From assembly GCA_032622095.1 (NCBI GenBank), contig CP136067.1:121123030-121187029 (forward strand): DNA of 64,000 nucleotides, read 5' to 3'. Shown here in pieces: positions 33,641 to 62,999 of this stretch. Positions within the stretch are counted from its first letter, which is position 1; each line of letters starts with the position of its first letter. Source of the DNA: Siphonodentalium dalli (Eukaryota > Mollusca > Scaphopoda > Gadilida > Siphonodentaliidae). Position numbers and translations under genes: made by a program. Under the pieces are notes generated by a model. That model ran no database searches, was not told the DNA's origin, and saw nothing but the letters and a program-made list of their open reading frames with translations.

Positions 33641-35150
33641 AGCTCAACTTACTTTGTAAGTTTGAGCTCTTGCCATGGGTTGGCGTCCGTCATCCGTGTG
33701 TGCGTGTAGCTACAGGTCGTATCTTTGGTCTGATCTTGTTGAAATTTGTCATGAATGTTGAAATTGACATGTAGATGGGAACGAGTGATTTTGGGGTCAT
33801 TCGGCCAAAATACATGGCCGCTGGTGGCCATCTTGGATTTCAAAATTAAATCCATTGGCACGGGCTACAGGCCGTACTGTTTGTGTGATCATCATAAAAT
33901 TTGTCATGAATGTTGACATTTACCGGTAGATGGGAACAAGTCATTTTAGGATCATTCGGCCAAAAACATGGCCACTGGTGACCATCTTGGATTTTACTCT
34001 TTGCAATACTAAATCCTTTGACACATCCTACAGACCACATCTCTCATTCGATCATCACCAAACTTAATATGGATCATCGGGGTGACCTCTAGATGGGAAC
34101 GAGTCATTTTGGGGTCATTTGGCCAAAAAACATGGCCGCCGTAAGCCATCTTGGATTTTACTCTTTGCATCACTAAATACTTTCACACACCATACAGACC
34201 ACAACCCTGATCCGATCATCACCAAACTTAATATTCATCATTGGGGTGGCCCCTAGTTGGGCACGAATCATTTTGGGGTAATTCGGCCAAAAAAACATGG
34301 CCGCTGGTGGCCATATTGGATTTCAAAATTGAATTCATTGGAGCGGGCTACAGGCCGTACTGTTTGTCTGATCATCATAAAATTTGTCATGAATGTTGAC
34401 ATTTACATGTAGATGGGAACGAGTCATTTTAGGATCAATCGGCCAAAAAACATGGCCGCTGGTGGCCATCTTGGATTTTACTCTTTGCATCACTAAATCC
34501 TTTGACACATCCTACAGACCACATCCCTGATCCGATCATCACCAAACTTCATATGGATCATCGGGGTGACCTCTAGATGGGAACAAGTCATTTTATGGGT
34601 CATTTGGTCAAAAAACATGGCCGCTGGCATCCATATTGGATTTTACTCTTTGCATCACTAAATACTTTGACACACACTACATACCACATCCCTGATCTGA
34701 TCATCACCAAACTTCATATGGATCATCGGGGTGACCTCTTGATGGGAACGAGTCATTTTGGGGTCATTCGGCAAAAAAATATGGCCACCAATGGCCATTT
34801 TGGATTTTACTCTTTGTATGACTAAATGTTTCTACAAAATCCATTAGCATGGGTTATAGACCGATCTGTTTGTTTGATCTTATTAAAATTTGTCATGGAT
34901 GTTGAAATTGACATGGAGATGGGAACGAGTCATTTTGTGGTCATTCAGCAAAAAAACATGGCCGCCGGTGACCATTTTAGAATTTACTCTTTGCATCACT
35001 AAATCCTTTGGCACACCCTACAGACCACATCCCTCCATTTACTGTCAACCATTAACCATTTTTCACAATTTGGTTTCAGACCTTTCCATATTTCAATTTT
35101 CACCATGGATGGGGATATCCCAGCACCCATTGTGGTACCTCTTGTTTCAT
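33640..35150 (+). repeat. 164-bp-unit array, first block
   Basis: Starts with 'tagctcaacttactttgtaa' and 'gccatgggttggcgtccgtc', then ~8 diverged units containing 'gatgggaacgagtcatttt', 'ggccaaaaaacatggccgc' and 'ccatcttggattttactctt'. It ends in 'ctccatttactgtcaaccat'. It is the same element type as 47570-53330 and 53341-55475, but with shorter and more diverged units. Confidence 0.85.
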
Positions 35151-35371: not shown

Positions 35372-35430
35372 ACTGTTGATTGCAAGGAATGTATAAATTT
35401 ATTTAGGACATTACTGTATATGTTTTGCAG

Positions 35431-35555
35431 AGAATGTGTCAGTTTACAGAGAGAAGCCAGAGGATTCAGTTCACTATCTGACATTCACTGATGTTATGGG
35501 TAACCGTACCTATGCATCATGTCTGACTTATTATCAGAAATATCTAGTCATACAG
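35431..35555 (+). CDS. DENND3: DENND3 exon 3 (uDENN)
   Basis: Acceptor TATATGTTTTGCAG, phase 1; donor CAG|GTAAGT, phase 0 (125 bp). It encodes ENVSVYREKPEDSVHYLTFT then DVMGNRTYASCLTYYQKYLV-IQ, residues about 197-238. The block H(Y/F)L..TDV.GNRTY....YY is the hallmark uDENN strand pair of DENND3. A family X element starts at intron position +13. Confidence 0.9.
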
Positions 35556-36575: not shown

Positions 36576-36825
36576 GCTATGTATAGTGAGCCTGTCATTT
36601 GCAGAATGAGGTCCCCAGAGGGTGAATTTAGTGATGCTACCCCGCATAGCGGGCTAGCATCACCAAATTCACCCTCTGGGGACCTCATTCTGCTTACACC
36701 TCAGCAGAATGAGGTTCCCAGAGGGGGAATTTGGTGATGCTAGCCCGCTATGCGGGGTAGCATCACTAAATTCACCCTCTGGGAACCTCAATCTGCAAAT
36801 GACATACACACTATTTCAAGGCTTG
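36576..36825. mobile_element. Family X element, two hairpins back to back
   Basis: Two X hairpins (36604-36696 and 36707-36797) lie ten bases apart, with the right terminus 'cactatttcaaggcttg' intact and the left terminus degenerate. This short form matches the 255-bp copy at 40316-40570. Confidence 0.8.
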
Positions 36826-37673: not shown

Positions 37674-37819
37674 GACAAAGACGAGAAGTTGCTGTACCTG
37701 AAGTCATTAGAAGGTTGCACCAACGACATGAGTGAGGAGCTGTGCTGCTACGCTCCTAAATGTCTTCTGCTCATATCTAAGTTCCCATATTTCAGTGTGC
37801 TCAAAGAATGTCTATCATT
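37674..37819 (+). CDS. DENND3: DENND3 exon 4 (end of uDENN), donor at start of 54-bp array
   Basis: Acceptor TTTTTTAATTGCAG, phase 0; donor TCATT|GTAAGTAAC, phase 2 (146 bp). It encodes DKDEKLLYLKSLEGCTNDMS then EELCCYAPKCLLLISKFPYF and SVLKECLS, residues about 239-286. C(F/Y)xPxxxxxxS(R/K)FPY(F/Y)xxLK(D/E)CLS is a conserved DENND3 block. The donor used must be the first of ~44 identical ones: reading past it, codon 50 of the exon is TAA (37821-37823). The exon end from 37791 is also the first unit of the array. Confidence 0.9.
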
Positions 37820-40157
37820 GTAAGTAACAGGTATATCACTGTACTTCATTGTGCTCAAAGAATGTCTATCATTGTAAGTAACAGGTATATCACTGTACTT
37901 CAGTGTGCTCAAAGAATGTCTGTCATTGTAAGTAACAGGTATATCACTGTACTTCAGTGTGCTCAAAGAATGTCTATCATTGTAAGTAACAGGTATATCA
38001 CTGTACTTCAGTGTGCTCAAAGAATGTCTATCATTGTAAGTAACAGGTATATCACTGTACTTCAGTGTGCTCAAAGAATGTCTATCATTGTAAGTAACAG
38101 GTATATCACTGTACTTCAGTGTGCTCAAAGAATGTCTATCATTGTAAGTAACAGGTATATCACTGTACTTCAGTGTGCTCAAAGAATGTCTATCATTGTA
38201 AGTAACAGGTATATCACTGTACTTCAGTGTGCTCAAAGAATGTCTATCATTGTAAGTAACAGGTATATCACTGTACTTCAGTGTGCTCAAAGAATGTCTA
38301 TCATTGTAAGTAACAGGTATATCACTGTACTTCATTGTGCTCAAAGAATGTCTATCATTGTAAGTAACAGGTATATCACTGTACTTCAGTGTGCTCAAAG
38401 AATGTCTATCATTGTAAGTAACAGGTATATCACTGTACTTCAGTGTGCTCAAAGAATGTCTGTCATTGTAAGTAACAGGTATATCACTGTACTTCAGTGT
38501 GCTCAAAGAATGTCTGTCATTGTAAGTAACAGGTATATCACTGTACTTCAGTGTGCTCAAAGAATGTCTATCATTGTAAGTAACAGGTATATCACTGTAC
38601 TTCAGTGTGCTCAAAGAATGTCTGTCATTGTAAGTAACAGGTATATCACTGTACTTCAGTGTGCTCAAAGAATGTCTGTCATTGTAAGTAACAGGTATAT
38701 CACTGTACTTCAGTGTGCTCAAAGAATGTCTGTCATTGTAAGTAACAGGTATATCACTGTACTTCAGTGTGCTCAAAGAATGTCTGTCATTGTAAGTAAC
38801 AGGTATATCACTGTACTTCAGTGTGCTCAAAGAATGTCTGTCATTGTAAGTAACAGGTATATCACTGTACTTCAGTGTGCTCAAAGAATGTCTGTCATTG
38901 TAAGTAACAGGTATATCACTGTACTTCAGTGTGCTCAAAGAATGTCTGTCATTGTAAGTAACAGGTATATCACTGTACTTCAGTGTGCTCAAAGAATGTC
39001 TATCATTGTAAGTAACAGGTATATCACTGTACTTCAGTGTGCTCAAAGAATGTCTGTCATTGTAAGTAACAGGTATATCACTGTACTTCAGTGTGCTCAA
39101 AGAATGTCTATCATTGTAAGTAACAGGTATATCACTGTACTTCATTGTGCTCAAAGAATGTCTATCATTGTAAGTAACAGGTATATCACTGTACTTCAGT
39201 GTGCTCAAAGAATGTCTATCATTGTAAGTAACAGGTATATCACTGTACTTCAGTGTGCTCAAAGAATGTCTGTCATTGTAAGTAACAGGTATATCACTGT
39301 ACTTCAGTGTGCTCAAAGAATGTCTGTCATTGTAAGTAACAGGTATATCACTGTACTTCAGTGTGCTCAAAGAATGTCTATCATTGTAAGTAACAGGTAT
39401 ATCACTGTACTTCAGTGTGCTCAAAGAATGTCTATCATTGTAAGTAACAGGTATATCACTGTACTTCAGTGTGCTCAAAGAATGTCTATCATTGTAAGTA
39501 ACAGGTATATCACTGTACTTCAGTGTGCTCAAAGAATGTCTATCATTGTAAGTAACAGGTATATCACTGTACTTCAGTGTGCTCAAAGAATGTCTATCAT
39601 TGTAAGTAACAGGTATATCACTGTACTTCATTGTGCTCAAAGAATGTCTATCATTGTAAGTAACAGGTATATCACTGTACTTCAGTGTGCTCAAAGAATG
39701 TCTATCATTGTAAGTAACAGGTATATCACTGTACTTCAGTGTGCTCAAAGAATGTCTGTCATTGTAAGTAACAGGTATATCACTGTACTTCAGTGTGCTC
39801 AAAGAATGTCTGTCATTGTAAGTAACAGGTATATCACTGTACTTCAGTGTGCTCAAAGAATGTCTATCATTGTAAGTAACAGGTATATCACTGTACTTCA
39901 GTGTGCTCAAAGAATGTCTGTCATTGTAAGTAACAGGTATATCACTGTACTTCAGTGTGCTCAAAGAATGTCTGTCATTGTAAGTAACAGGTATATCACT
40001 GTACTTCAGTGTGCTCAAAGAATGTCTGTCATTGTAAGTAACAGGTATATCACTGTACTTCAGTGTGCTCAAAGAATGTCTGTCATTGTAAGTAACAGGT
40101 ATATCACTGTACTTCAGTGTGCTCAAAGAATGTCTATCATTGTAAGTAACAGGTATA
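37791..40157 (+). repeat. 54-bp tandem array of exon-end plus splice donor, ~44 copies
   Basis: The unit is 'ttcagtgtgctcaaagaatg', 'tctatcattgtaagtaacag', 'gtatatcactgtac'. The first unit spans the last 29 bases of DENND3 exon 4 and the start of intron 4. Copies are almost identical: only two sites vary (tctAtc/tctGtc and cttcaGtg/cttcaTtg). All copies keep GTAAGTAAC. The phrase cttcaT-unit, two tctA units, two tctG units, one tctA unit recurs at three places, so blocks of units have been copied together. The 787- and 810-codon frames on the two strands exist only because 54 is a multiple of three and are not genes. Confidence 0.97.
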
Positions 40158-40167
40158 CCAGAATTGT

Positions 40168-40664
40168 TTAACCCTTTCATGACGGGAGCTAAGCTGGTGC
40201 AGCATTAAAGATCCAGTGCCAGTGCATTCTCTTATATATGTGAGTCTCCCACAGGCTTACAAGGTCAAGGTAAATATTGTTAGGCAAATGTGTTCTCTTA
40301 TATATTAAGAGGCTCCAAGCCTTGAAATAGCGTGTCTGTCATTTGTAGAATGAGGTCCCCAGAGGGTGAATTTAGTGATGCTACCCCCGCATAGCGGGCT
40401 AGCATCACCAAATTCACCCTCTGGGGACCTCATTCTGCTTACACCTCAGCAGAATAAGGTCCCCAGAGGGAGAATTTGGTGATGCTAGCCCGCTATGCGG
40501 GGTAGCATCACTAAATTCACCCTCTGGGGACCTCATTCTGCAAATGACAGACACACTATTTCAAGGCTTGAGAGGCTCCCTATGGAAGACTTACATATAT
40601 AAGAGAATGCATTGGCACAGGATTTTCGCAAAATTTTAGGAAGCTCCAGTCATCGAAGGGTTAA
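40168..40664. mobile_element. Family V palindrome (TTAA-bounded) with family X nested inside
   Basis: TTAACCCTTTCATGACGGGAG-type start (first 20 bases) at 40168 and inverse end 'tcatcgaagggttaa' at 40664. The inner V hairpin is split by the X element at 40316-40570. It begins ten bases after the end of the 54-bp array. Confidence 0.85.
40316..40570. mobile_element. Family X hAT-like element, short form, exact TSD
   Basis: 255 bp from CAAGCCTTGAAATAGCGTG to the inverse CACTATTTCAAGGCTTG; exact duplication agaggctc at 40308-40315 and 40571-40578. It consists of two hairpins separated by 'ttacacctca'. Nested in V. Confidence 0.95.
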
Positions 40665-40815: not shown

Positions 40816-41303
40816 CAACGCCTGAGTATAGTGTCTGTCATTTTCAGAACCTGCTATGCGGGATAGCTTCACTAAATTCACCCTCTGGGGACCTCATTCT
40901 GCTTAGGGCTCATCTTCTAAGGAAAGTTTCTTTATTATCAAATTTCTATAGAAACTCCTTCACATAGATTCTATTTCTTTTTTAGTTTAGTTTCTCTATA
41001 TCCCAAATTGGCAGACGACACATGTATAATCAAGGTTCCCAATGAGTGTACATCACAATATTCACCATTTGGGAACTTCAATCTGAGTCTATGTCTCCCA
41101 TAGCAGATGAGGCCATGCAGAATTAGGTCCCCAGAGGGTGAATTTAATGATGCTAGCCTGCTCTGCAGGATAGCATCACATGCAGAATGAGGTCCCCAGA
41201 GGGTGAAGTTAGAAATGCTAGACCGCTATGCTGGATAGCCTCACTAAATTCACCCTCTGGGGACCTCATTCTGCAAATGAAAGGCACACTAAACTCAGGC
41301 TTG
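40816..41303. mobile_element. Family X hAT-like element, exact TSD
   Basis: Ends CAACGCCTGAGTATAGTGT and the inverse ...CACTAAACTCAGGCTTG; exact duplication ttggcatt (40808-40815 and 41304-41311). The left hairpin has lost most of its first arm. 88 bp upstream of DENND3 exon 5. Confidence 0.9.
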
Positions 41304-41390: not shown

Positions 41391-41499
41391 GCTCCTGAAA
41401 CAGATAGAAGCTGATCCTGAGGAAATCTACACATTTCTTAAGGAAATGACCTTCACCTTATGTATGACACCGGTACCTCCAGCAGGGATAGTGGGTGTG
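41391..41499 (+). CDS. DENND3: DENND3 exon 5 (uDENN-cDENN linker)
   Basis: Acceptor ATAATTTAAAAG, phase 2; donor GTG|GTATGT, phase 0 (109 bp). It encodes LLKQIEADPEEIYTFLKEMT then FTLCMTPVPPAGIVGVV, residues about 287-323. The P.PP.G....V motif is the usual lead-in to the central DENN module. The acceptor has a weak pyrimidine tract, but phase and protein fit are good on both sides. Confidence 0.85.
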
Positions 41500-43589: not shown

Positions 43590-43787
43590 AGGCTGAACAT
43601 GAACCAAGTACCAATATATCTACAGCCTTCTGAGTACCCGTCTAAACCAGTTGTAGATATACCACTACATCTAGCATTCTTATGCTTTACACCGGAGGAG
43701 GTTTTAAAAATCATCACATGTATTCTGCTCGAGATGCCGATGGTATTCCTCTCATCAAGTTACTCGCTGCTTACCGTTATCATCGAG
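43590..43787 (+). CDS. DENND3: DENND3 exon 6 (cDENN core)
   Basis: Acceptor GTATTTTATCTTTCAG, donor GAG|GTAGAT; phase 0 at both ends (198 bp, 66 codons, residues about 324-389). It encodes DIPLHLAFLCFTPEEVLKII then TCILLEMPMVFLSSSYSLLT and VIIE. The pattern LHL.(F/L)LCF.PE.VL.I.TCIL.E...VF.SS...LLT is the central DENN strand-helix pair that contacts the Rab substrate. A partial X element starts at intron position +18. Confidence 0.95.
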
Positions 43788-45806: not shown

Positions 45807-46135
45807 CGAAGCACGGTTGCATTACTCTTATATAGCAGACTTTAGTGTAAATCACCTGCTCATCTGAAATCATCAATGGTGATAATAAAATAACACAATT
45901 GTGAACGGAACCAGGTTTATTCCGTAGAAAACAATATATTTGTTCTAATCTCCACAAGAGATGGGGGGGGGATTTCTTCTTCATTGAATCTACCGGTACA
46001 AACTTAGTTTGAGATTTTCTGGGTCAACTTGAAATTATAAAATGGCCAACTCAAGAATATTTTTTGAAACTCTATCACCTATAGTTCATTTACATACAAT
46101 CCACCTCTGTTTAAACTGTTTTTGTTACATTCCAG

Positions 46136-46276
46136 AGCTTCCTTACGTTTATACTGCCGTTCACATGGCGGGGGACATATGTGCCAATATTAGCTGCGAA
46201 CTCACTAGAATTCCTTGAAGCGCCTGGTATATTCCTAATGGGATGCAACTCCAAATACAAGGATGAGGTTGCTCAG
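46136..46276 (+). CDS. DENND3: DENND3 exon 7 (cDENN)
   Basis: Acceptor TTGTTACATTCCAG, donor CAG|GTAATT; phase 0 at both ends (141 bp, residues about 390-436). It encodes SFLTFILPFTWRGTYVPILA then ANSLEFLEAPGIFLMGCNSK and YKDEVAQ. The pattern P..W...(F/Y)VP(I/V)L....L(D/E)(F/F)..AP..FLMG is the most conserved stretch of the DENN fold. Confidence 0.95.
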
Positions 46277-46401
46277 GTAATTATATCCCCCGTACACCTG
46301 TGATTATGACATCTGTCGGACTATTTTTGTTAGAGCTTTCCCCCTTTTTCGCAACATGCATAATTTTGTCCGAGGTTTTATTCCTACAATGTTTGGTCAA
46401 T

Positions 46402-46435
46402 AGGTTTAGGATTAGGGTTTGGGGTTAGGGTTGTG
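46402..46435 (+). repeat. Short TTAGGG-like stretch
   Basis: 'Gtttaggattagggtttggg' and 'gttagggttg' hold several imperfect TTAGGG copies. It is too short and imperfect to call an interstitial telomere. Confidence 0.4.
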
Positions 46436-46638
46436 CATCTGCAATGGAAATCTGTTATTTTATTATTTTAACTTAATGTTTACTGACATGAGAAACATCT
46501 TAGTCTTTTAAAAATCTGGGGGGTATCAGTAGTCCCATTTGGACAATCACACCTTTAGTTTTATAACTGAATGGGAGAATCCATTTAGTATAGAAAAGGT
46601 TAAATCCTGAAATTCCTGTTTGCCCAAACATTTTGCAG

Positions 46639-46838
46639 GTGAATGGTATTACGATTATAGACATAGATGAAAGTACAATCACAATAAATGATAAGGATGA
46701 CAATAACTACCCATCTGACCAAGGATACGAGGAGTTTCCTGAACTAGCAATCCCACCAATGCCTCATGATGTCACAGAGATGTTCCTGAAAAATTATAAA
46801 AGCATACGATTTCACTTTGATCTGATGGATGTTCAGCG
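46639..46838 (+). CDS. DENND3: DENND3 exon 8 (end of cDENN)
   Basis: Acceptor ACATTTTGCAG, phase 0; donor CAGCG|GTAAGA, phase 2 (200 bp, residues about 437-502). It encodes VNGITIIDIDESTITINDKD then a short acidic loop and PELAIPPMPHDVTEMFLKNY followed by KSIRFHFDLMDVQR. The first part matches the (I/V)(L/I)IN(I/L)D.G.(I/V) strand; PxLPxxP is the usual DENN terminus. Donor phase 2 pairs with exon 9. Confidence 0.9.
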
Positions 46839-46844
46839 GTAAGA

Positions 46845-47300
46845 ACTATATTTTTATCACTCAGAGCTAATATGATAATGAATATGCATATGCAAGGCAT
46901 ACATAATGACCCGATAAGATTGTGTACAGTAGTCTAAAAATATTTATGCCTAACGCATGGTAATTATGCGAATGCTTGACTTTGATATACCTATGGTTTA
47001 GACATCACCCTTTGATAATATAGGCCTATATGGAGTTTGCAATAATTAAGCATGCCACTATCAGACCTAAGTTCCGCCTGTTAAACCTTCCATAACTGGA
47101 GCTTCCTGAAATTTAGCAAAAACCTTGTGCCAATATGCATTTCTTATATATGCAAGAGTTCCATAGGGAGCCTCGAATATATAAGACTAGCAGGTCAGCC
47201 CGCCACTGGCGGCGTTTGTCAGAAACATGACAATTTTAAATTTAATTGTTTTTTTATTTTAAAATTTCTTTAATTTTAAATTTTTTTAATTTAATTTTTT
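46845..47300. other. Intron 8 start with V fragment and a CTAG-type repeat end
   Basis: 47088-47185 holds a V-like half ('ataactggagcttcctgaaa', 'tatatgcaagag.tcc'). 'Actagcaggtcagcccgcca' at ~47188 followed by T-rich DNA looks like the start of an RTE/SINE-type repeat; the assignment is tentative. Confidence 0.45.
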
Positions 47301-47570
47301 GTTTTTCAATGAGTTAATTCTGCCTTTTTCGGGCGGAAAAACTGACCCGATGAAATCCCCCCCTTCCTAGGAACGACAGACATAAGAATCACACAACACG
47401 CATTTTTTGTTTTTCAATGAGTTAATTCTGCCTTTTAATCAAGAGAAATTATGGTACCCGTCCCTAAAAGAGTTATGATTTAAGGTACATCGGGCGGAAA
47501 AAACTGACCCGATGAAAATTTCCCCCGTTCCTAGGAACGACAGACATAAGAATCACACAACACGCATTTT
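47300..47570 (+). repeat. Direct duplication of 'caatgagttaattctgcc' block
   Basis: 'Ttttcaatgagttaattctg' followed by 'cgggcggaaaaa' and 'cctaggaacgacagacataa' occurs twice (47300-47410 and 47405-47565). A further copy of the first part is at 55484, just past the 164-bp arrays, so the arrays are bracketed by this sequence. Confidence 0.8.
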
Positions 47571-50500
47571 TAGCTCAACTTTACTTTGTAAAGTTTGAAC
47601 TATTGCCATGGTTAGGTATCCGTAGTCCGTGTGTGCGTGTGTGGGGGTGTGTGTGTGCGTGTGTGATGCGTCAACAATTTCCTTTAGCATGGGCTACAGT
47701 TCGTACCTTTGGTCTGATTATTATGAAATTTGTCATGGATGTTGACATTGACATGTAGATGGGAAAGAGTCATTTTGGGGTCATTCGGAAAAAAAACATG
47801 GCTGCCATTGGCCATCTTGGATTTCAAAATTCAATCCATTAGCACGGGCTACAGGCCGTAGTGTTCGTCTTATTGTCATGAAATTTGTCATGAATGTTAA
47901 CAATGACAGGAACGAGTCATTTTGGGGTCATTCGGCCGAAAAACATGGCCGCCAGCAGCCATCTTGGATTTTACTCTTTGTATGACTAAATCCTTTAGCA
48001 CGGGCTTCAGGTCGTACCTTTAGTCTGATCATCATAAAATTTGTCATGAATGTTAATAATGACATGTAGATGGGAACTAGTCATTTTGGGGTCATTCGGC
48101 CAAAAAACATGGCCGCCAGCAGCCATCTTGGATTTTACTCTTTGTATGACTAAATCGTTTAGCATGGGCTACAGTTTGTACCTTTAGTCTGATAATCATA
48201 AAATTTGTCATGGATGTTAACAATGGCATGTAGATGGGAACGAGTCATTTTGGGGGTCATTCGGCCAAAAAACATGGCCGCCAGCAGCCATCTTTGATTT
48301 CAAAATTTAATTCATTAGCATGGGCCACAGGTCGTACTATTCGTCTGATCATCATGAAATTTGTCATGGATGTTAACAATGACATGTAGATGGGAACGAG
48401 TCATTTTGGGGTTATTTAGCCGAAAAACATGGCCGCCAGCAGCCATCTTGTATTTTACTCTTTGTATGACTAAATCCTTTAGCACGGGCTTCAGGTCGTA
48501 CCTTTAGTCTGATCATCATAAAATTTGTAATGAATGTTAACAATGACATGTAGATGGGAACGAGTCATTTCGGGGTCATTCGGCCGAAAAACATGGCCGC
48601 CAGCAGCCATCTTGAATTTTACTCTTTGTATGACTAAATCCTTTAGCACGGGCTTCAGGTCGTACCTTTAGTCTGATCATCATAAAATTTGTCATGAATG
48701 TTAATAATGACATGTAGATGGGAACGAGTCATTTTGGGGTCATTCGGCCAAAAAACATGGCCGCCAGCAGCCATCTTTGATTTCAAAATTTAATTCATTA
48801 GCATGGGCCACAGGTCGTACTATTCGTCTGATCATCATGAAATTTGTCATGGATGTTAATATTGACATGTAGATGGGAACGAGTAATTTTGGGGTCATTC
48901 GGCCAAAAAAGATGGCCGCCAGCAGCCATCTTGGATTTTACTCTTTGTATGACTAAATTCTTTAGCACGGGCTACAGTTCGTACCTTTAGTCTTATCATC
49001 ATAAAATTTGTCATGAATGTTAACAATGACATGTAGATGGGAACGAGTCATTTTGGGGTTATTTAGCCGAAAAACATGGCCGCCAGCAGCCATCTTGGAT
49101 TTTACTCTTTGTATGACTAAATCCTTTAGCACGGGCTTCAGGTCGTACCTTTAGTCTGATCATCATAAAATTTGTCATGAATGTTAACAATGACATGTAG
49201 ATGGGAACGAGTCATTTTGGGGTTATTTAGCCTAAAAACATGGCCGCCAGCAGCCATCTTGGATTTTACTCTTTGTATGACTAAATCGTTTAGCATGGGC
49301 TACAGTTTGTACCTTTAGTCTGATAATCATAAAATTTATCATGGATGTTAACAATGGCATGTAGATGGGAACGAGTCATTTTGGGGTCATTCGGCCAAAA
49401 AACATGGCCGCCAGCAGCCATCTTTGATTTCAAAATTTAATTCATTAGCATGGGCCACAGGTCGTACTATTCGTCTGATCATCATGAAATTTGTCATGGA
49501 TGTTAACAATGACATGTAGATGGGAACGAGTCATTTTGGGGTTATTTAGCCGAAAAACATGGCCGCCAGCAGCCATCTTGTATTTTACTCTTTGAATGAC
49601 TAAATCCTTTAGCACGGGCTTCAGGTCGTACCTTTAGTCTGATCATCATAAAATTTGTAATGAATGTTAACAATGACATGTAGATGGGAACGAGTCATTT
49701 CGGGGTCATTCGGCCGAAAAACATGGCCGCCAGCAGCCATCTTGAATTTTACTCTTTGTATGACTAAATCCTTTAGCACGGGCTTCAGGTCGTACCTTTA
49801 GTCTGATCATCATAAAATTTGTCATGAATGTTAATAATGACATGTAGATGGGAACGAGTGATTTTGGGGTCATTCGGCCAAAAAACATGGCCGCCAGCAG
49901 CCATCTTTGATTTCAAAATTTAATTCATTAGCATGGGCCACAGGTCGTACTATTCGTCTGATCATCATGAAATTTGTCATGGATGTTAATATTGACATGT
50001 AGATGGGAACGAGTAATTTTGGGGTCATTCGGCCAAAAAAGATGGCCGCCAGCAGCCATCTTGGATTTTACTCTTTGTATGACTAAATTCTTTAGCACGG
50101 GCTACAGTTCGTACCTTTAGTCTTATCATCATAAAATTTGTCATGAATGTTAACAATGACATGTAGATGGGAACGAGTCATTTTGGGGTTATTTAGCCGA
50201 AAAACATGGCCGCCAGCAGCCATCTTGGATTTTACTCTTTGTATGACTAAATCCTTTAGCACGGGCTTCAGGTCGTACCTTTAGTCTGATCATCATAAAA
50301 TTATTCATGAATGTTAACAATGACATGTAGATGGGAACGAGTCATTTTGGGGTTATTTAGCCGAAAAACATGGCCGCCAGCAGCCATCTTGGATTTTACT
50401 CTTTGTATGACTAAATCCTTTAGCACGGGCTTCAGGTCGTACCTTTAGTCTGATCATCATAAAATTTGTCATGAATGTTAATAATGACATGTTGATGGTA

Positions 50501-50702
50501 ACGGGTCATTTTGGGGTCATTCGGCCAAAAAACATGGCCGCCAGCAGCCATCTTGGATTTTACTCTGTGTATGACTAAATCCTTTAGCACGGGCTACAGT
50601 TCGTACCTTTAGTCTGATCATCATAAAATTTGTCATGGATGTTAACAATGGCATGTATATGGGAACGAATCATTTTGGGGTCATTCGGCCGAAAAACATG
50701 GT
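47570..50702 (+). repeat. 164-bp-unit array, second block (left part)
   Basis: Header 'tagctcaactttactttgta' then GTGTGTG-rich sequence, then ~18 units with 'tgatcatcataaaatttgtc', 'gacatgtagatgggaacgag' and 'aacatggccgccagcagcca'. A higher-order period of 1130 bp is visible: 48311 onward matches 49441 onward, and 48794 matches 49924. The array is broken at 50711 by a hAT element and resumes at 52507. Confidence 0.95.
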
Positions 50703-51809
50703 AGCCAGTGTAGGCTCCTGCGAATATTCGATTCGAGATTCGATTCGAAAGTCAAATTCGATTCGAATTCGAGTCGAAATTGCCAACTCGAAATTTCGAA
50801 TATACTATGACGGAAAAGTAGGCTGTTTCAGGACAAGTACACATGTCGATCTTAGGTGTTTGTGGCATTTAATTCCAGAAAATTATGTATATATGCACAT
50901 TATAATTCTTATTGTACACAGCCAACAATTAGCCACGATAGGACGACTAAATACGTCTGAATTATATAACTTTAAAATAGTAGCAAAAGCTAGCAGATAG
51001 CCAATGGACCGACGACGCGGTAAATTATAATAGCTATGACACTGGGCTACCGATAGCGTTATCCATCGTCTATTCGATTCCGCGTTATGTAATATGGGTG
51101 AGAATGTAAACAACACATGAGACTGGTGTCGAAAAGTGCATTTTGGCACTGTTCTCTTTTGAAGTTGACTTTCAGTTTCGGAGTTTTCTTTTACAATGGA
51201 CAAAATGTCGTCCATCATTCATGTTTATTTTAAACACTATTCAAATAAGTTTCTTCTCAGCTGCATGTGGACACACGTCGCATTCTCGTTCCTAACATGC
51301 CCATATATACTGCCACACATCATAAATGTTACCGTACATTATCATGATTTATCTAACGGGACTATTACCATACACCACCAGATATACATAAACAGATATA
51401 TATATGTAATATTGATAATTTGAATTATCCCAAAACCTCACTCAACAAAGAGACTTTCCGACGATCCATATAGATTCTCATTCTGTTTACCTATATAAAG
51501 ATGGCGGTATCTCTCGCCTGAAACCGTTGTAGCAACAGAAAACAAAATATTTTGTTCCTAATATATACCCATGGAACTGGAACTGAAACTGTTAATATGT
51601 TTTAGATAATTTGAACAGTTCAAAAAATTCCTATGGAAAGATAGTACATCTTCGATCTGATAAATCGTCTGGATTGGCTCACAACCACGACAATACTCAT
51701 TTGTGATATGCCCTAAGTACTAGATTCTAAAAAGTTTTATATATGACTATAGTCTGTACAAGTGCGTAGATCTGAAATACAAGCATCTATGCTATTACGT
51801 ATAGTTATA

Positions 51810-51955
51810 CTTGTTTTAGGGGGTAGCAGGAAGACAGCCCGATAGGGCTAAGCTACCCCCGACAATACACTGTTATAATTTATTATGTATTACTGCCACT
51901 GTATCATTCGTGTGTATTGTAAATAAACTATCCTATCCTATCCTAAACATGATAA
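51810..51955 (+). mobile_element. LINE/SINE 3' end with (TATCC)n tail
   Basis: 'Ggggtagcaggaagacagcc' with inverse 'gctaagctaccccc', then AT-rich sequence and a tail 'taaactatcctatcctatcc'. A 3' hairpin plus a short tandem tail is typical of non-LTR elements. It sits directly upstream of the BED-finger remnant. Confidence 0.55.
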
Positions 51956-52090
51956 AGCTGCAGGCACATGTGATGAATGCAACATGCATGGTGTATAAAT
52001 CGCAAGCATCTGGGACAATGACCCATCTATGGAATCATCTGTTCAAGAAGCATCAACCAATACATGAAGAGGCTACACTGCGACTGTTGT
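51955..52090 (+). pseudogene. BED-type zinc finger remnant of a hAT transposase
   Basis: One frame gives GTCDECNMHGV then a stop; the next frame gives VYKSQASGTMTHLWNHLFKK then HQPIHEE. Together they show C-x2-C, GTxxLxxHL and a final H, the BED-finger pattern that hAT transposases use to bind DNA. A one-base frameshift between the two halves breaks it. Position and frame support origin from the autonomous parent of 50711-52506. Confidence 0.75.
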
Positions 52091-52506
52091 TGCGTCTTCA
52101 AGTTTATAACAACGGGTGTTTCCAAATGCCGATTTGCAATTTTGCATGTACATGCAAACTGTAGAAATTTCGTGTGATTTTAGTTTGATAATCCGTTTAG
52201 TGGTAATATATTAATCGTTGTGATGGCCGCATGGACGTTTTAATCTGCTTTGTTTTCTTGACAATTATAAATTGAAGTTAATAGTATATCAAACGACGGT
52301 TTATCGCCACATAAGTTCTGATGGAACTTCATGCATGTAGTTCATAGAACGTTTCACAAATAATCTAATCGTTGACAAAACATACCTAATTGAGAATGCA
52401 ACACACAGATATCATTCGATTCGATAATCGATTCGATATTCGATTCGATTTCGTGAATTCGATTCGATATTCGATTCGATCAAAATATCCAATTCGCAGG
52501 ACCCTA

Positions 52507-53335
52507 AGCCAGTGGCCATCTTTGATTTCAAAATTCAATCCATTAGCACAGGCTACAGGTCGTACTGTTAGTCTGATCATCATGAAATTTGTCATGGATG
52601 TTAATATTGACATGTAGATGAGAACGAGTGATTTTGGGGTCGTTCGGCCAAAAAACATGGCCACCAGCAGCCATCTTGGATTTTACTCTTTGCATGACTA
52701 AATCCTTTCCCGCGGGCTACATGTCGTAGCTTTGATCGGAACTTCATGAATTTTGTCATGGATGTTAACAATGACATGTAGATGGGAACGAGTCATTTTG
52801 GGGTCGTTCAGCCAAAAAACATGGCCACCAGCAGCCATCTTGGATTTTACTCTTTGGATGACTAAATCCTTTGGCGCGGGCTACAGTTCGTACCTTTTGT
52901 CTGATCTTTATGCAATTTGTAATGATTGTTGACATGTAGATGGGAACGAGTGATTTTGGGGTCATTCGGCCAAAAAACATGGCCGCTGGTGGCCATCTTG
53001 GATTTCAAAATTAAATCCATTGGCGAGGACTACAGGTTGTACTGTTAGTCTGATCATCATGAAATTTGTCATGGATGTTAATATTGACATGTAGATGGGA
53101 ACGAGTGATTTTGGGGTCTTCAGCTAAAAAACATGGCCACCAGCAGTCATCTTGGATTTTACTATTTGCATGACTAAATATTTCTACAAAATCCATTAGC
53201 ATGGGTTATAGACCGATCTCATTTACATCTTGTCTTACTTAGACATTTCAATTAGCACCTTTAATAATTCCTCCATTTACTGTCAACCATTAAATTATTC
53301 CCCAACCAAAGTTGAGCTACAGTGTCATTGACACT
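52507..53335 (+). repeat. 164-bp-unit array, second block (right part)
   Basis: Continues the array after the hAT element with ~4-5 units, then 'ctccatttactgtcaaccat', 'ccaaagttgagctacagtgt' and 'cattgacactttcatt'. The AGCTCAACT start and AGTTGAGCT end are inverted copies and may be element termini. Confidence 0.9.
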
Positions 53336-53340
53336 TTCAT

Positions 53341-53394
53341 TAGCTCAACTTTACTTTGTAAAGTTTGAGCTATTGCCATGGCTTGGTATCCGTC

Positions 53395-53430
<36 letters not shown>

Positions 53431-55475
53431 GTGCGTGTATGCGTGATTCGTCAACAATTTCCTTTAGCACGGGCTACAGTACGTACCTTTGGTCCGATTA
53501 TTATGAAATTTGTCATGGATGTTGACAATGACATGTAGATGGGAACGAGTCATTTTGGGTTCATTCGGGAAAAAAACATGGCCGCCAGTGGCCATCTTGG
53601 ATTTCAATATTCAATCCATTAGCACGGGCTACAGGTCGTACTGTTCGTCTGATCATCATGAAATTTGTCATGGATGTTAATATTGACATGTAGATGGGAA
53701 CGAGTAATTTTGGGGTTGTTCGGCCAAAAAACATGGCCACCAGCAGCCATCTTAGATTTTACTCTTTGCATGACTAAATTCTTTGGCACGGCCTACAGGC
53801 GTACCTTTGGTCGGATTATGATAATTTTTTTCATGGATGTTAACAATGACATGTAGATGGGAACGAGTCATTTTGGGGTCATTCGGCAAAAAAACATCGC
53901 CGCCAGCAGCCGTTTTGGATTTTACTCTTTGTATGACTAAATCCTTTAGCACGGGCTACAGGTCGTACCTTTAGTCTGATCATCATAAAATTTGTCAAGT
54001 ATGTTAATAATGACATGTAGATGGGAACGAGTCATTTTGTGGTCATTCGGCCAAAAAACATGGCCGCCAGCAGCCATCTTGGATTTTACTCTTTGTATGA
54101 CTAAATCCTTTAGCACGGGCTACAGGTCGTACCTTTAGTCTGATCATCATAAAATTTGTCATGGCTGTTGAAATTGGAATGTAGATGGGGTCATTCGGAC
54201 AAAAAACATGGCCGCCAGCGGCCATCTTGCATTTCAAAATTTAATCCATTAGCACGGGCCACAGGTCGTACTGTTCGTCTGATCATCATGAAATTTGTCA
54301 TGGATGATAATATTGACATGTACATGGGAACGAGTAATTTTGGGGTCATTCGGCCAAAAAACATGGTCGCCAGCAGCCATCTTGGATTTTACTCTTTGTA
54401 TGACCTAATCCTTTAGCACGGGCTACAGGTCCTACTTTTAGTCTGATCATCATAAAATTTGTCAAGAATGTTAATAATGACATGTAGATGGGAACGAGTC
54501 ATTTTGGGGTCATTCGGCAAAAAACATGGCCGCCAGCAGCCATCTTGGATTTTACTCTTTGTATGACTAAATCCTTTAGCACGGGCTACAGGTCGTACCT
54601 TCAGTTTGATCATCATAACATTTTCACATGGCTGTTGAAATTGGAATGTAGATGGGAAAGAGTCATTTTGGGGTCATTCGGACAAAAAACATGGCCGCCA
54701 GTGGCCATCTTGGATTTCAAAATTTAATCCATTAGCACGGGCCACAGGTCGTACTGTTCGTCTGATCATCATGAAATTTGTCATGGATGATGATATTGAC
54801 ATGTAGATGGGAACGAGTATTTTTGGGGTCATTCGGCCAAAAAACATGGCCGCCAGTAGCCATCTTGGATTTTACTCTTTGTATGACTAAATTCTTTAGC
54901 ATGGGCTGCAGGTCGTACCTTTAGTCTGATCATCATAAAATTTGCATGAATGTTAATAATGACATTTAGATGGGAACGAGTCATTGTGGAGTCATTCGGC
55001 CAAAAAATATGGCCGCCAGCAGCCAATTTGGATTTTACTCTTTGTATGACTAAATTCTTTAGCACGGGCTGCAGGTCGTACCTTTAGTCTGATCATCATA
55101 AAATTTGTCATGAATGACATGTAGATGGGGACGAGTCATTGTGGGGTCATTCGGCCAAAAAATATGGCCGCCAGCAGCCAATTTGGATTTTACTCTTTGT
55201 ATGACTAAATTCTTTAGCATGGGCTACAGGTCGTACCTTTAGTCTGATCGTCATAAAAATTTTCATGGATGTTAACGATGACATGTAGATGGGAACGACT
55301 CATTTTGGGGTCATTCGGCCGAAAACATGGCAGCCATCTTGGAAATTAATTTTTCTCTTCATGTCTATAAACTAGTATTAGACATTCAACTTTCCACATT
55401 CCTAATCGCTCCATTGACTGTAATACATTAAATTATTCCCTTTCCAAGTTGAGCTACAGTGTCATTGACACTTTC
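53341..55475 (+). repeat. 164-bp-unit array, third block
   Basis: The same header 'tagctcaactttactttgta', a (GT)n run at 53399-53425, ~12 units, then the same tail 'aagttgagctacagtgtcat'. It follows the second block directly, so two whole array-bearing elements lie head to tail. Confidence 0.92.
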
Positions 55476-56099
55476 ATTTGTTTTCCAATGAGTTAATTCT
55501 GCCTATTTAATCGAGATAAATGCATTTCACGTTTTGCATCTGTAGTTTCGTACTCATGGGTAACCGTTTAGCAACGTCGATGGCAATAAAGAGTGTTAGT
55601 CGGTTAACAACTACAAATATGGTCAGTATAAAGATCGTTGATGCCTTAACCCCCGAAGTGTCGTTTGCGGTGATTTTGATGATTGGTAGTGGAGAATGAG
55701 TGCTCAGAGCTTGTCCAAAATGCGACGTTGACGACCCCCGTGGGATTTTACCCTTAGATAGGAAGTTTGAGCTCAATCTGACCTGCCGTTTTCGATTCTA
55801 TAAAGTACCCACACACATATATACACATATACGGAAGTCTTAAAATATATAGTAGAAGATAATGCATTGGCCTAACAATATTTACCTTGACCTTCATGTA
55901 TGCAAGGCTCCCTTTGAATGACTCACATGTATAAGAGAATGCACTGGCTCAGGGTCTTTAATGCTGCACTTTCAGATAGGTTACGGAACTCAAAGACATT
56001 TGGTGTGGAGTGTGCCACCAGGATCTACCAGTATTCAAAATGAGGACCCATTCATGTTCATATTTTCTATTCTAGAGTTGTCCTTCTTTGTTTCCTCAG
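55476..56099. other. Intron 8 end, with family V fragment
   Basis: 55860-55970 has 'aatgcattggcctaacaata', 'tataagagaatgcactggct' and 'cagggtctttaatgctgcac', pieces of a V palindrome without TTAA ends. Otherwise nothing is recognised. Confidence 0.5.
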
Positions 56100-56210
56100 A
56101 TCTAGTCCGACCAACCTTAGTGATGAGAAGGAATATCGCAGAAAGAAGATTGAAAGTTTCAATCGGGATATAACCACAAGTTGCCTTGAGCTTATGGTAA
56201 ACCTTTTTAG
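56100..56210 (+). CDS. DENND3: DENND3 exon 9 (dDENN)
   Basis: Acceptor TTCTTTGTTTCCTCAG; donor TTTAG|GTAAGG; phase 2 on both sides (111 bp, residues about 503-539). It encodes SSPTNLSDEKEYRRKKIESF then NRDITTSCLELMVNLFR. Vertebrate DENND3 has the equivalent ...(R/K)...Q...I......L.L(L/M)V..FR(D/S)V at the start of dDENN. The joined frame across exons 8-10 has no stop. Confidence 0.9.
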
Positions 56211-56954
56211 GTAAGGATAAATATAAACTATCTGCATTCTCCATTTGAAAATACCAATTTTTTGGTACAAATTCATCGCGACGATCAATCAATGCAAAAA
56301 CTGGTTTTGTATATTTCAGTCATAAAGATTTTAAAAATCACACAATTAACACCTCACTTGTTTGTTTCTGAAAGCGAAACATAAGACATAGCTTTCATGC
56401 GATTTTTTACACAATCAAAGTCCGCAATGGTCCAAAATTTACTTTTACCAAATGTAAATATGTTTTGCCAAATTCTCTTTGAATTTGCCAAATGATATTG
56501 GGGGTAGATATATTATGGTGTTATAGAAAATTTATTCTAATATGTTGACAAAGGCTATTTCAAACTCTTCACTTGTTGTTTTAGACATTTAGGCGCATGC
56601 TGTGACTAAACAAAACGTTTCGTTTCAGATAATCGAGATGCTATTTTTCTTTCTCGTAATTGCAATTCATCTACAGGCCGCGCTAAATTCACACCAAAGG
56701 ACAATGAATCAATCCAGACAGCAGCTATTGCAATTATGAATCATTCTTGTCCCTCCAGTGGATTTTAATATCATAAAACAATAAATCAATCACTCGCCAA
56801 TATAATTAGTGGAGAACTGCGTCTACAAAAACGTGATTGCTTTTATAAACATCAGTATCATACACAATTCCCCTACCTCACTCATATGCAATGAGATCAA
56901 CTACCTTTTGATGGAAGTATTGACTATCCATACACCTCCATTATCAGCTACTAC
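56211..56954. other. DENND3 intron 9, no repeat recognised
   Basis: AT-rich. Contains an exon-like stretch bounded by 'catctacag' (56677) and 'ccctccag' (56759) but no in-frame coding fit to DENND3. Confidence 0.4.
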
Positions 56955-57179
56955 TTAACCCTTTGAGTGCCAGGTCGATTTTTGTATCAACCCATATACC
57001 CTGTGCCAATGCATTCTCTTATATATGCGAGTCGACCATAGGTCGGCTCGCATATATAAGAGAATGCATTGGCCTAACAATTTTGTTTTTTCACAATTTT
57101 TTACAATTTTAATACTTTATTCTAATATTCTTTAACAGACTTATTTTATGAGATCGGCCCCTGGCACTCAAAGGGTTAA
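56955..57179. mobile_element. TTAA element with nested V hairpin
   Basis: TTAACCCTTTGAGTGCCAGG start and 'cctggcactcaaagggttaa' end, exactly inverted for 20 bases. Inside (56998-57085) is a perfect hairpin 'caatgcattctcttatatat' ... from family V. The remaining interior is T-rich. Confidence 0.85.
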
Positions 57180-57334
57180 CTGTGCTTTCATGACCTGAAT
57201 GGTTTGATCGAACAAACGCATGATAAATACTTTGTGGAGAACTCACTTGATTTTTTGCCAGATGAAAATATTTTATGCCAGCTTTTTTTGGCTGGCAGTG
57301 TATCCATGCAAATCATACACTTTATTTCTTATAG

Positions 57335-57431
57335 ATCTGTTATACCAGAAATGAGATTCGACCTACGGCGGTTCAATAAACAGTCTTTCTTGGAGTCAAA
57401 ACCAGATGATGAGAAATTGTTCTATGAAAAG
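57335..57431 (+). CDS. DENND3: DENND3 exon 10 (dDENN)
   Basis: Acceptor CACTTTATTTCTTATAG, phase 2; donor AAG|GTAAAT, phase 0 (97 bp, residues about 540-572). It encodes SVIPEMRFDLRRFNKQSFLE then SKPDDEKLFYEK. The pattern (R/N)FN...FL....P.D..FY is the core dDENN motif of DENND3. Confidence 0.92.
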
Positions 57432-57589
57432 GTAAATATAGAAAATATAACAAAATAGAATTTCAGTATTACCCTGCTTTTCTGCAATATTCGGTTGTGA
57501 TTAATAATGTATTGTCAGCAACTTAGATCCAATTCTGCTCTATAGTAAACTGTTAATATCTGGCTTTGTTACCTCCTCCTTATTTGTCC

Positions 57590-57800
57590 CCCGAAAAATT
57601 TATTTTTGGGGGACTATAGAAACGGGCTCCGTCCGTCCGTCCGTTGCAAGTAACGTCCGTTCGTCCATCACACTTTTGAGTACCTTCATGGTGTAATCAT
57701 CTCCTCCTACAGATTTCATCCCAGAGATTTGAAACTTCAGAATATTGTTGCCCATATATTGAAGATGTGCAACATGTATATAGATGACATCAAAGTACTA
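57590..57800 (+). repeat. Dispersed repeat, second copy
   Basis: Starts with the hairpin 'cccccgaaaaatttattttt'-'ggggg', then 'gggctccgtccgtccgtccg' and 'gagtaccttcatggtgtaat'. Same family as 3160-3560. Confidence 0.7.
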
Positions 57801-58411
57801 ACATCAGAACTGAGGTGTGACATTTAAATGGACTCGTTTAAACACAACATTGTACATATATCTGTTTAAATGCCCACTTATTTTTCAAATGCCCAGATAA
57901 CATTATACACAACATATTCCATATTATATACCATTTGGATGAGGAACCAAAAATATATTATATTCCACCAGAATATGGAACAGCTGTGGCCTAGGTGTGT
58001 CCACCGAGTGATTAAGATTCTCAGGTTCATTCCAAGACTTCCCCCGTTGTCACCCAGAATGCATCAGAATTCAAACTAAGATATAGAGTTATTCCTCTTC
58101 CATTGAGAATAATAGACTTTACAGTACAGTCAGGATCAAAATTAAGCACAGAACACACCTCGGTACCTTGACAAAAATAATATGTTGCTAGTTTATTCGA
58201 CCTGATCAGTTGATAATGCAATGTTTTGGAGCTTCATCTTTCAAATGGTATATAATATGGAATATGTTGTATATAATGTGATCTGATGATTCAAAAATTA
58301 AATGGGCCTTTAACCTGTATTGGCTGAATAAGGCCATGCGGCCAATTTCCAATATGATTAATTTCAATAAGTTGTTATTTACTGGATCACCAATGTTTAT
58401 CTATACTCCAG
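57801..58411. other. DENND3 intron 10, no gene seen
   Basis: AT-rich. 'Tatacaacatattccatatt'-like inverse pieces occur at ~57905 and ~58250, a weak distant inverted repeat. No exon. Confidence 0.35.
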
Positions 58412-58557
58412 GTCTTGGCTACAGATATGTTCAGACAATTCACAGAATCTCGACTCAGCGAAGCAACTGATTACTGGTCTGAACTGGAAACCAAAACACG
58501 CCCGTATGCTCAGAAGATACCTCGCGGAGGACCAGATTCTTCTCCAATCTCTATGAG
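58412..58557 (+). CDS. DENND3: DENND3 exon 11 (end of dDENN)
   Basis: Acceptor TATCTATACTCCAG, phase 0; donor ATGAG|GTGAAA, phase 2 (146 bp, residues about 573-620). It encodes VLATDMFRQFTESRLSEATD then YWSELETKTRPYAQKIPRGG. The pattern V..T.MF..F...RL is the last dDENN helix. After it the protein enters the linker that in vertebrate DENND3 is regulated by phosphorylation. Confidence 0.92.
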
Positions 58558-58824
58558 GTGAAACTCATCATTATTGACTCATTAAAATTATGTGTTCTGA
58601 TATCATTGGGTTGGGTACTTGAAACTTGATTGTAACTGATCTACTGAAAAAAGTCTTGTGGTCTGTCTCGAAAATTTGATCTCATGCAGGTGACCCTTAC
58701 CTGCCTAATCCGATTTATGGTGTGACTTTTCTTCAGCCATTTTGGTCCAGAAATGACCTGATCATCATCATTGTGTTCACTGAATTGATATAAACTAGGC
58801 ATGCTGCATAATATGTGTGATATA

Positions 58825-61240: not shown

Positions 61241-61537
61241 TATATGAAGCTAAGGATGTCCTAATGTCATGTCATGATTAACTTAAGGAGTGTTCAGAAA
61301 TTCTGTTGTGTCTGTTACATTGTGCGTTGGTGCGTTGTTTTGAAATTGAAATATAGGCAACACCACTAAGGCATTCATAAATCTGCAATACATCATATCT
61401 ATAAAAGAACAAACAGAGGGATTATATTCACATGCTGCAGCTGGCCCCAATACACACCTCATATGGCATGGAAGTGCATATTTTCATGACATATTTCCAT
61501 ATAGTGGTTATTGTTTTCAATCATTCAAATCTGTCAT

Positions 61538-61665
61538 CAAGCCCTGAAATAGTGAGCCTGTCATTTGCAGAATGAGGCCCCACAGAGGGTGAATTTAGTG
61601 ATGCTACCCCGCATAGTGGGCTAGCATCACCAAATTCACCCTCTGGGAACCTCATTCTGCTGAAT
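61538..61665. mobile_element. Family X terminal hairpin
   Basis: CAAGCCCTGAAATAGTGAGC start and hairpin to 'gggaacctcattctgctgaa'. The second half of the element is missing. Confidence 0.75.
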
Positions 61666-61737
61666 GCTTAATAGAATAATTTAGATAGAAATTTCATTAA
61701 CCTTTAAGTTATCTAAATGGTCTTCATCAGGCTTAAA

Positions 61738-62212
61738 ACAAATAGTGATGTTTCCGGTAATGGAGAGGAAAAAAGTAGGGGTAGACGGATGGAAATAAAA
61801 TTTAAAAAACCTTTTTTTGGGGGTGAAACATCCATATATGGAATGTATTCCTTTTGATTATATACCCATTCCAACACAATTGATATAATAGGGCACAATG
61901 AGCACATTTCTGTAGGTATTGGAATGGATAATGAAGCCTTGGCAATATTTTTAATAAAAAACGATTGCAACGTCAACTGTGGGTTAAACTGGCCTGTATT
62001 ATACACAAGAGTGCCGTCATCTTAAAACAATGACTTTCTTGTGTAAATAATTCAGATCAGTGACTGATCAGCTCAGTTTTATAATGATCATAGATCGATA
62101 AACACATTTTTTGGTGGTTTTTGTGTCATTTTTTTCCCTTTGTTGATCGAATTAGTAGGGGCGGATGTCTGGGCTAGGGGCTGGCGGTATACTGGAAACA
62201 TCACTATTTATA
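61738..62212. mobile_element. TIR element 'aatagtgatgtttcc'
   Basis: 'Aaatagtgatgtttccggta' at 61738 and the inverse 'tactggaaacatcactattt' at ~62193-62212. ~475 bp, no coding capacity recognised; the superfamily is open. Confidence 0.65.
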
Positions 62213-62296
62213 TTCAGGCCTTATTAGCAACAAGTGAGAGGAATATATGAGTACATTGTTATGTTTTCTTATAATATGGAATTTTTGATCTTTTAG

Positions 62297-62453
62297 GACT
62301 CGACGAAATGAGAAGAGAATGAGTGTATCTGTATCCATGGTGCCGCTAGCATTCCAGAGAAGGGAGGTAACCTACTTTGATCTGCCAGTTTTTGTACAGG
62401 ATGTCAAGCAGTATCTGTCGCTGTGTATCGGTACTCTGACAGATGCTCAGGAG
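62297..62453 (+). CDS. DENND3: DENND3 exon 12 (linker); 3' end of gene outside window
   Basis: Acceptor TTTTTGATCTTTTAG, phase 2. It encodes RTRRNEKRMSVSVSMVPLAF then QRREVTYFDLPVFVQDVKQY and LSLCIGTLTDAQE (residues about 621-673). The basic stretch followed by (R/K)M.VS(M/V) matches the DENND3 linker just after dDENN. The donor is weak: GAG|GTTGGT (62454) keeps phase 0, and G|GTATTA (62458) is the alternative. The WD40 half expected of DENND3 is not in the remaining 1.5 kb. Confidence 0.8.
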
Positions 62454-62548
62454 GTTGGTATTAACCCCTTCATTACTGAATGGATTATTCCATTTAGTTA
62501 TAAAAGTATACATTGGAATGGTCTATTATTCATTTGGAACGTGTTCAG

Positions 62549-62991
62549 CAAGCCTGAATTTATTGTGTCTGGCGTTTGCAGAATGAGGTCCCTAGAGGGT
62601 GAATTTAGTGATGCTATTCCGCATGGCAGGGTAGCATCACCAAATTCACCGTCTGGTGACCTCACTCTGCTTAGGCCTCATCTTCTTGGAAGTATCTATA
62701 TTCTCAAGTTAACATTGTTTTAGCTACTTTTTCCCTTCTGTTTAGTTTTTATATCCCATAATTTGCAGAAGATAAAATGCATAATCAAGGTGACTAATGG
62801 GTGAACATCACCAACTTCAACTGGGGAACTTCAATCTGATCCCAGGTCTCACATAGTAGTTGAGGTCTAAGCAGAATGAGGTCCCCAGAGGGTGAATTTG
62901 GTGATGCTACCTGCTGTGTGGGATAACATCACTAAAATCACCCTCCGGGGACCTCATTCTGCAAATGTCAGCCACACTAAATTCAGGCTCG
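62549..62991. mobile_element. Family X hAT-like element inside a family W repeat
   Basis: CAAGCCTGAATTTATTGTGT to the inverse of CGAGCCTGAATTTAGTGTGG. Flanks gtgttcag and gtgtttag, an 8-bp duplication with one mismatch. The W repeat ('tacattggaatggtctatta' ... 'aatataagcagacgacg') is continuous if X is removed, which confirms the insertion. Confidence 0.92.
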
Positions 62992-62999
62992 GTGTTTAG

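Follow-up and report, generated by a model that had tools for sequence, protein, structure and literature searches.

The window analysed here is a stretch of 64,000 nucleotides from the scaphopod mollusc Siphonodentalium dalli (contig CP136067.1, positions 121,123,030 to 121,187,029 of the forward strand), which carries on its plus strand what is, judging from its sequence, a DENN-domain gene. Five coding exons were delineated. The most upstream of these (35431..35555), which covers the end of uDENN and terminates in the donor CAG/GTAAGT, was assigned by reading of frame and splice signals. It is followed by an exon of 146 nt (37674..37819) that ends in phase 2 and is supported by sequence, translation and a DENN match spanning its junctions, and by an exon (41391..41499) whose phase fits the first donor of the latter. 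The two remaining exons (43590..43787 and 46136..46276) encode DENN domain sequence, as Pfam DENN is matched above cut-off already by the fragments 43596-43787 and 46094-46267, respectively. All five exons have fitting phases and their joining yields a single open frame, the product of which matches positions 1-169 of 186 of Pfam DENN (PF02141) at 6.7e-35, that is, better than either fragment, and DENND1A in the PDB at 3.2e-9. A uDENN stretch near 35421-35528 stayed below the Pfam cut-off (E 0.01). A preliminary description of the window had designated the 146-nt exon as exon 4 of DENND3; the assignment to a DENN-domain gene holds, whereas the name DENND3 and the exon number are unproven. DENND3 carries C-terminal WD40 repeats after its DENN domain. 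Pfam searches of the three plus-strand frames of 46280-64000 returned no hit at all, and hence none to WD40 or dDENN (E up to 1 / 0.1), and the gene may extend past the window.

Several other repeats are found in the window. Satellite blocks of 164/483 bp occupy positions 33709-35035, 47680-50708 and 52537-55336, within or near introns of the DENN gene. A palindromic, MITE-like element (CAGAATGAGGTCCCCAGAGGG...) is present at 9124-9822, 36601-36796, 40347-40541 and 41114-41244, and the same element also adjoins a dynein exon elsewhere (L083).

The 146-nt exon is flanked by introns of 2118 and 3571 bases, and its 3' end forms the first unit of a 54-bp tandem array on the plus strand (37791..40157). 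Computed directly with Tandem Repeats Finder, the array at 37791-40157 has a period of 54, 43.8 copies, 99% matches and a score of 4573. A script agreed, finding 43 full units plus 45 bp, which are the initial 45 bases of a partial 44th unit; the roughly 44 tandem 54-bp copies of exon end and donor reported in the preliminary description were thus recovered by both routes. Each unit consists of 29 exon and 25 intron bases. The donor GTAAGTAAC is perfect in 44/44 units at a spacing of 54 bp, from donor 1 (37820..37828) to donor 44 (40142..40150), and the script counted no further instance outside the array on the plus strand of the window. Among the 43 full units, two of the 54 columns are variable, namely column 5 (G/T, 39:4) and column 24 (A/G, 24:19), and the mean pairwise identity amounts to 98.7%. 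Two long ORFs running through the array (796 aa on the plus strand, 818 aa on the minus strand) were considered and rejected: long frames stay open across the array because 54 is divisible by 3, and the plus-strand ORF is not in the frame of the exon.

A search with four units, in which very common words were skipped, retrieved no second copy of the array from the 2.23-Gb, 9-contig assembly. A match at this place alone argues for a local origin rather than for a dispersed satellite, and the support from this search for a unit derived from the local gene is strong, although short of absolute given the skipped words. The left flank reads CCC-ATA-TTTC and the right flank GGT-ATA-CCAG, with ATA common to both; where two units meet, the sequence is GGT-ATA-T, CACTGTAC, TTCAG. 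We infer a route in which a segment of ~46 bp, comprising the end of the exon and adjoining intron sequence, would have been duplicated in tandem; the 8-bp stretch CACTGTAC would have been added to the unit, which would have expanded to 44 copies by unequal exchange or slippage. With respect to unit order, a 14-unit block recurs at a lag of 24 units, and so long a block run at any lag of 10-30 arose in 29/5000 first-order Markov simulations and in 1/5000 shuffles. The array seems to have grown in part by block duplication, and the block repeat at lag 24, as read from a single haplotype, is suggestive of length instability. The recent expansion and instability proposed beforehand fit this block repeat and the near-identity of the units.

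Alternatively, the array might be an artefact of assembly, either because its copy number was inflated or because a repeat was collapsed or misjoined. There is precedent for this, as one of the tandemly duplicated exon edges known from amphioxus as 'mirages' was judged misassembled in the draft genome according to a supplementary note (PMC3087553). However, the two variants of the unit are interspersed in an ordered pattern that includes the 14-unit block repeat, and copies of exon edges are present at other loci on several contigs. Taking these points together, we regard an assembly error of this sort as very improbable.

Joining of each of the 44 donors to the next exon revealed that donor 1 alone keeps the frame open. 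Donors 2-44 all terminate at one codon, giving ...KECLSL-stop, that is, any later donor reads into the in-frame TAA at 37821..37823 on the plus strand. These 44 frame joins, likewise computed directly, bear out what had been stated for the first donor and the TAA before. The stop is not peculiar to the DENN gene, as any GTAAGT donor behind a phase-2 exon puts TAA in frame; indeed, an immediate TAA is present in 4/10 donor arrays examined.

An exon of 146 nt between introns as long as these (2118 and 3571 nt) represents a setting thought to favour exon definition. From the frames and from published human work we infer that the exon is recognized across itself: the acceptor ending at 37673 would pair with the nearest donor, which is donor 1 (37820), and donors 2-44 would be left as decoys within the 3571-nt intron. 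We consider it likely that the array is a boundary-spanning minisatellite, or mirage, in which exon definition picks donor 1; the exon-proximal donor is most likely chosen and the other 43 would be mostly inert. That donor 1 keeps the frame open agrees with the rule that the donor nearest across the exon is used, and an exon recognized across itself would leave the gene functional. Use of a decoy would lead to one identical truncated product or to a decayed mRNA. As all decoys would give the same outcome, a variable copy number would do no more than adjust how much full-length mRNA is made.

Evidence on donor choice comes from published minigenes. In five exon-definition minigenes carrying two identical strong donors, the upstream donor was used exclusively, and comparable competing donors obey the nearest-across-exon rule, as described in PMC9225289 (Carranza, Shenasa, Hertel). 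Furthermore, the mirages in the amphioxus Adh3 and globin genes reportedly leave splicing undisturbed (PMC3087553). Together with the lengths of the flanking introns, these observations lend no support to a truncated protein as the likely outcome; the preliminary description had predicted such a protein, or a decayed mRNA, for the use of any later donor. However, other results argue against inert decoys. In the same minigene study, the genome-wide preference for the upstream donor was just 60% when every event with comparable donors was included, weakening of the donors of long exons led to skipping, and at acceptors the upstream preference was lowered, but not clearly reversed, under exon definition (PMC9225289). 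Moreover, two downstream repeat units of human IFI6 serve as donors and give rise to isoforms (PMC4526556). Donor 1 itself has middling complementarity to U1, which is a further point against certainty about inert decoys: its duplex energy is -7.0 as compared to -12.1, -6.7, -6.6 and -8.1 for the other donors of the gene, and 77/3272 other GT sites on the plus strand of the window attain this level. In the arrays that were read, the exon-proximal copy is joined to the exon body, which is a matter of geometry and says nothing on donor use. The array could also be so young that mis-splicing has not yet been eliminated.

The same stop would acquire a function if the array were a regulated splicing switch. 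In this case, a fraction of the transcripts would use a later donor and stop after KECLSL, and copy number would set the amount of full-length protein in a manner resembling a poison exon. A single stop common to all 43 later donors and the perfection of the donor in every unit would suit such a device, as would the use of downstream units in IFI6 and the human CBS VNTR, which is associated with reduced CBS activity according to the title of Lievers 2001, cited in PMC1395315. However, the upstream donor was the exclusive choice in the exon-definition minigenes, and the design is not a general one, given the fraction of arrays with an immediate TAA noted above and one array (L021) without a stop in the stretch read. 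Likewise, we obtained no signal for an RNA structure that would conceal the later donors, as four units fold no better than shuffled sequences (z -0.57; 62/200 as good). On this evidence we deem a regulated switch unlikely.

The units could also serve as 24-nt microexons, inserting FVLKECLS repeats in frame into the DENN domain, a use that had been suggested at the outset. The arithmetic allows for it: a unit taken as a 24-nt exon keeps the frame, the insertion is open, and TACTTCAG stands ahead of the 24 coding bases in 39/43 later copies. The motif 'tacttcag', originally ascribed to every unit, is found in that number of later copies, and four of the 43, including the second unit, read 'tacttcat' and lack the AG. 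In addition, the pyrimidine tract is short, only 30 nt separate a donor from the next acceptor in adjacent units, and the insertion would sit inside the DENN domain. In a donor array at another locus (L009), the exon part is not preceded by an AG, as judged by eye. Microexons thus appear hardly credible to us, and the reading as a mirage spliced from donor 1 remains the preferred one.

The array is not unique of its kind, as exon-edge arrays are present elsewhere in the genome. Scanning for runs of three consensus donors yielded at least 20 clusters on contig C1, 17 of which were fetched. In 9/17 fetched clusters (L009-L013, L020-L023) the array starts, as judged by eye, with the end of a coding exon, defined as an open frame with an acceptor-like AG; L009 has a start codon instead, and at L011 the stretch fetched covers only 110 bases upstream of the first donor of that array. 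An open frame of 25-57 codons is in itself no rarity, and just 2/9 exon-end clusters reached the Pfam cut-off, with matches to LEM (1.3e-8) and USP47_C (6.2e-12), respectively. Three of the nine matched below the cut-off, that is to zf-met (0.015), DSPc (0.2) and DegQ (0.0046), the last of which is probably spurious, and four had no Pfam match. Searches of the PDB gave no convincing match for the exons at L010, L012, L020 and L023; for the L009 exon they returned the LEM domain of LAP2 at 0.0077, ranked under several chance matches to repeat proteins. Two clusters (L024, L025) came without a clear exon, and at L019 the array filled the stretch fetched.

Some of the donor clusters deserve description in their own right. 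L014-L018 represent one dispersed repeat family with a TAACCA..ACAGGTAAGT core (C1:15.72, 24.34, 28.09, 95.78 and 257.6 Mb), which forms tandem arrays with consensus donor motifs and no visible exon. L019 (C1:231.99-232.06 Mb) is a 26-bp satellite extending across tens of kilobases, the unit of which contains one motif resembling a donor and another resembling a branch site (GTAAGT...CTAAC). In the 99-bp exon-edge array at L021 (C1:14498400-14499800), the frame reads on without meeting a stop in the stretch covered, so that use of later donors could add repeats to the coding sequence.

At the other exon edge, a scan for three acceptor motifs gave 19 clusters from all 85 rows, which is fewer rows than for the reversed control (14/71 forward/reverse as compared to 53/251). 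Among five clusters fetched, two end at an exon start, two are without an exon and one stretch is filled by the array. Of the former, one terminates at an exon of a dynein heavy chain (AAA_lid_11, 9e-18) and the other at an exon of a STRIP1 homologue (DUF3402 2.3e-10; PDB 1.9e-17). The STRIP1-like exon (L027, C1:21685300-21686200) has a 49-bp array on its acceptor side and a 35-bp array on its donor side, at the opposite end. An excess of donor arrays over a reversed-pattern control was considered and dropped: the counts disagree, a few huge arrays dominate them, and no enrichment is claimed. Forward/reverse rows of the donor scan were 839/720 versus 145/150, 1409/1348 versus 1456/784 and 531/782 versus 1459/706 in the control. 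Counted by clusters, the donor pattern occurred 5 times within the initial 22.9 Mb of C1 and the reversed pattern 9 times within the initial 84.8 Mb.

The frequency of such duplications was assessed in exons that had not been chosen for arrays. The dynein sample comprised the best 80 of 96 listed AAA_6 domain matches by E-value, with flanks of 400 bp (L061-L100) or 250 bp (L101-L140), some of which overlap or hold a neighbouring exon. Tandem arrays made from the exon's own edge were found at 4/80 dynein exons (L080, L091, L097, L111). The overlap at L097 is 5 bp and was counted, as the units copy exon bases, whereas L108 and L131, at which Tandem Repeats Finder gave AT-rich two-copy repeats overlapping the exon by 4-5 bp, were left out; L138, by eye apparently a two-copy donor case, is outside both this count and that of aligned copies below. 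Arrays cover 3.8% of flank bases (1978/52000, partly double-counted) and 0.8% of exon bases (132/16137), and the share of exon edges lying in arrays (4/160) is about the density in the flanks. With an edge rate near background, there is no indication that the position of arrays at exons serves a purpose.

Alignment of the exons to their own flanks (E up to 1e-3) revealed partial exon copies on the same strand for 9/80 dynein exons. These nine are not all independent, as L093 and L099 apparently represent one exon in two similar genes. The controls yielded 0/80 on the opposite strand, 0/80 with reversed sequence and 0/240 with codon-shuffled sequence. When each copy was assigned to the nearer exon end, 18/18 aligned copies showed the order predicted by tandem duplication across the boundary, with copies of the 5' edge upstream and of the 3' edge downstream; this figure includes two mid-exon copies (L139 and one at L091), L139 resting on 20 bp. 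Among other DENN exons, 2/10 have a same-strand flank copy and 0/10 one on the opposite strand, and of the five exons of the window gene only the array exon has copies in its own flank. Taken together, exon edges are copied at ~1 in 10 conserved exons (11/90, a small sample from two families, paralogues included). Kinase exons were rejected as an independent sample, as all 30 loci derive from one near-identical intronless cluster. This cluster (C2:149.8-150.6 Mb, L031-L060) is a tandem arrangement of dozens of protein-kinase genes that are almost identical and apparently lack introns.

The commonness of exon-edge duplication in this genome may be the new aspect here. Two proximity rules for identical donors predict opposite outcomes, that is, use of the donor nearest across the intron or of that nearest across the exon (PMC9225289). 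With 44 identical donors and smaller donor and acceptor arrays in the same genome, RNA reads could decide between these rules in vivo, and intron gain by exon-edge duplication would be directly observable in a genome where it is frequent. More broadly, and as a serious possibility that still falls short of probable, the figure of 11/90 with none on the opposite strand may reflect tandem duplication of exon edges throughout the genome. This process would provide a natural experiment in the choice of donors and acceptors as well as raw material for introns and exon extensions; some arrays, L021 for example, may already extend a coding sequence by repeats, and the run of 44 donors would put the cross-exon proximity rule to an extreme test.

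Amphioxus, whose genome comprises about 0.5 Gb on 19-20 chromosomes as against the 2.23 Gb in 9 contigs analysed here, offers one system for comparison. Its mirages in Adh3, the globin genes BflGb6 and BflGb9, TnC and PGBD5 are alike in being local tandem duplications of an exon edge together with its splice signal, and, as far as the available parts of the two papers describe them, either exon edge is duplicated and counts differ between haplotypes (PMC3087553, PMC3902484). The feature by which a mirage is recognized, namely tandem copies with exon bases, splice signal and intron bases, is found in the DENN array, too. However, the amphioxus copy numbers given there are small, with 6 and 3 units in the BflGb6 haplotypes and three in PGBD5 as compared to 44 here. 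A literature search confined largely to open-access papers found no report of mirages outside amphioxus and human.

Among human genes, CBS provides two related cases. The 844ins68 allele is a duplicated intron 7/exon 8 junction, of which the more distal copy is strongly favoured by the splicing machinery, yielding normal mRNA (PMC2630376), a result that speaks for the reading preferred here. The 31-bp VNTR at the exon 13-intron 13 boundary (PMC1395315) is designated c.1444_1467+7(16_21), that is, by nomenclature the unit comprises 24 exon and 7 intron bases, and repeat numbers of 16, 17, 18, 19 and 21 are tabled (PMC2630376). Read in this way, the nomenclature implies that the VNTR repeats the donor in each unit, similar to the DENN array, from which it differs by its 31-bp unit, its fewer copies and its being a human polymorphism with population data. 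The minisatellite of IFI6 (6-16; Turri 1995, as described in PMC4526556) is alike in that its repeat units supply alternative donors, and differs in that later donors yield isoforms, whereas in the DENN array any later donor leads to a stop. In young human paralogues, new introns can arise from repeats that lie at exon-intron boundaries (PMC2812944), and exon-edge duplication is a proposed route of intron gain (PMC3087553, PMC2812944). Thus, the DENN array belongs to a known kind of boundary minisatellite and has more copies than the boundary arrays compared here, as these are documented in the available portions of their sources.
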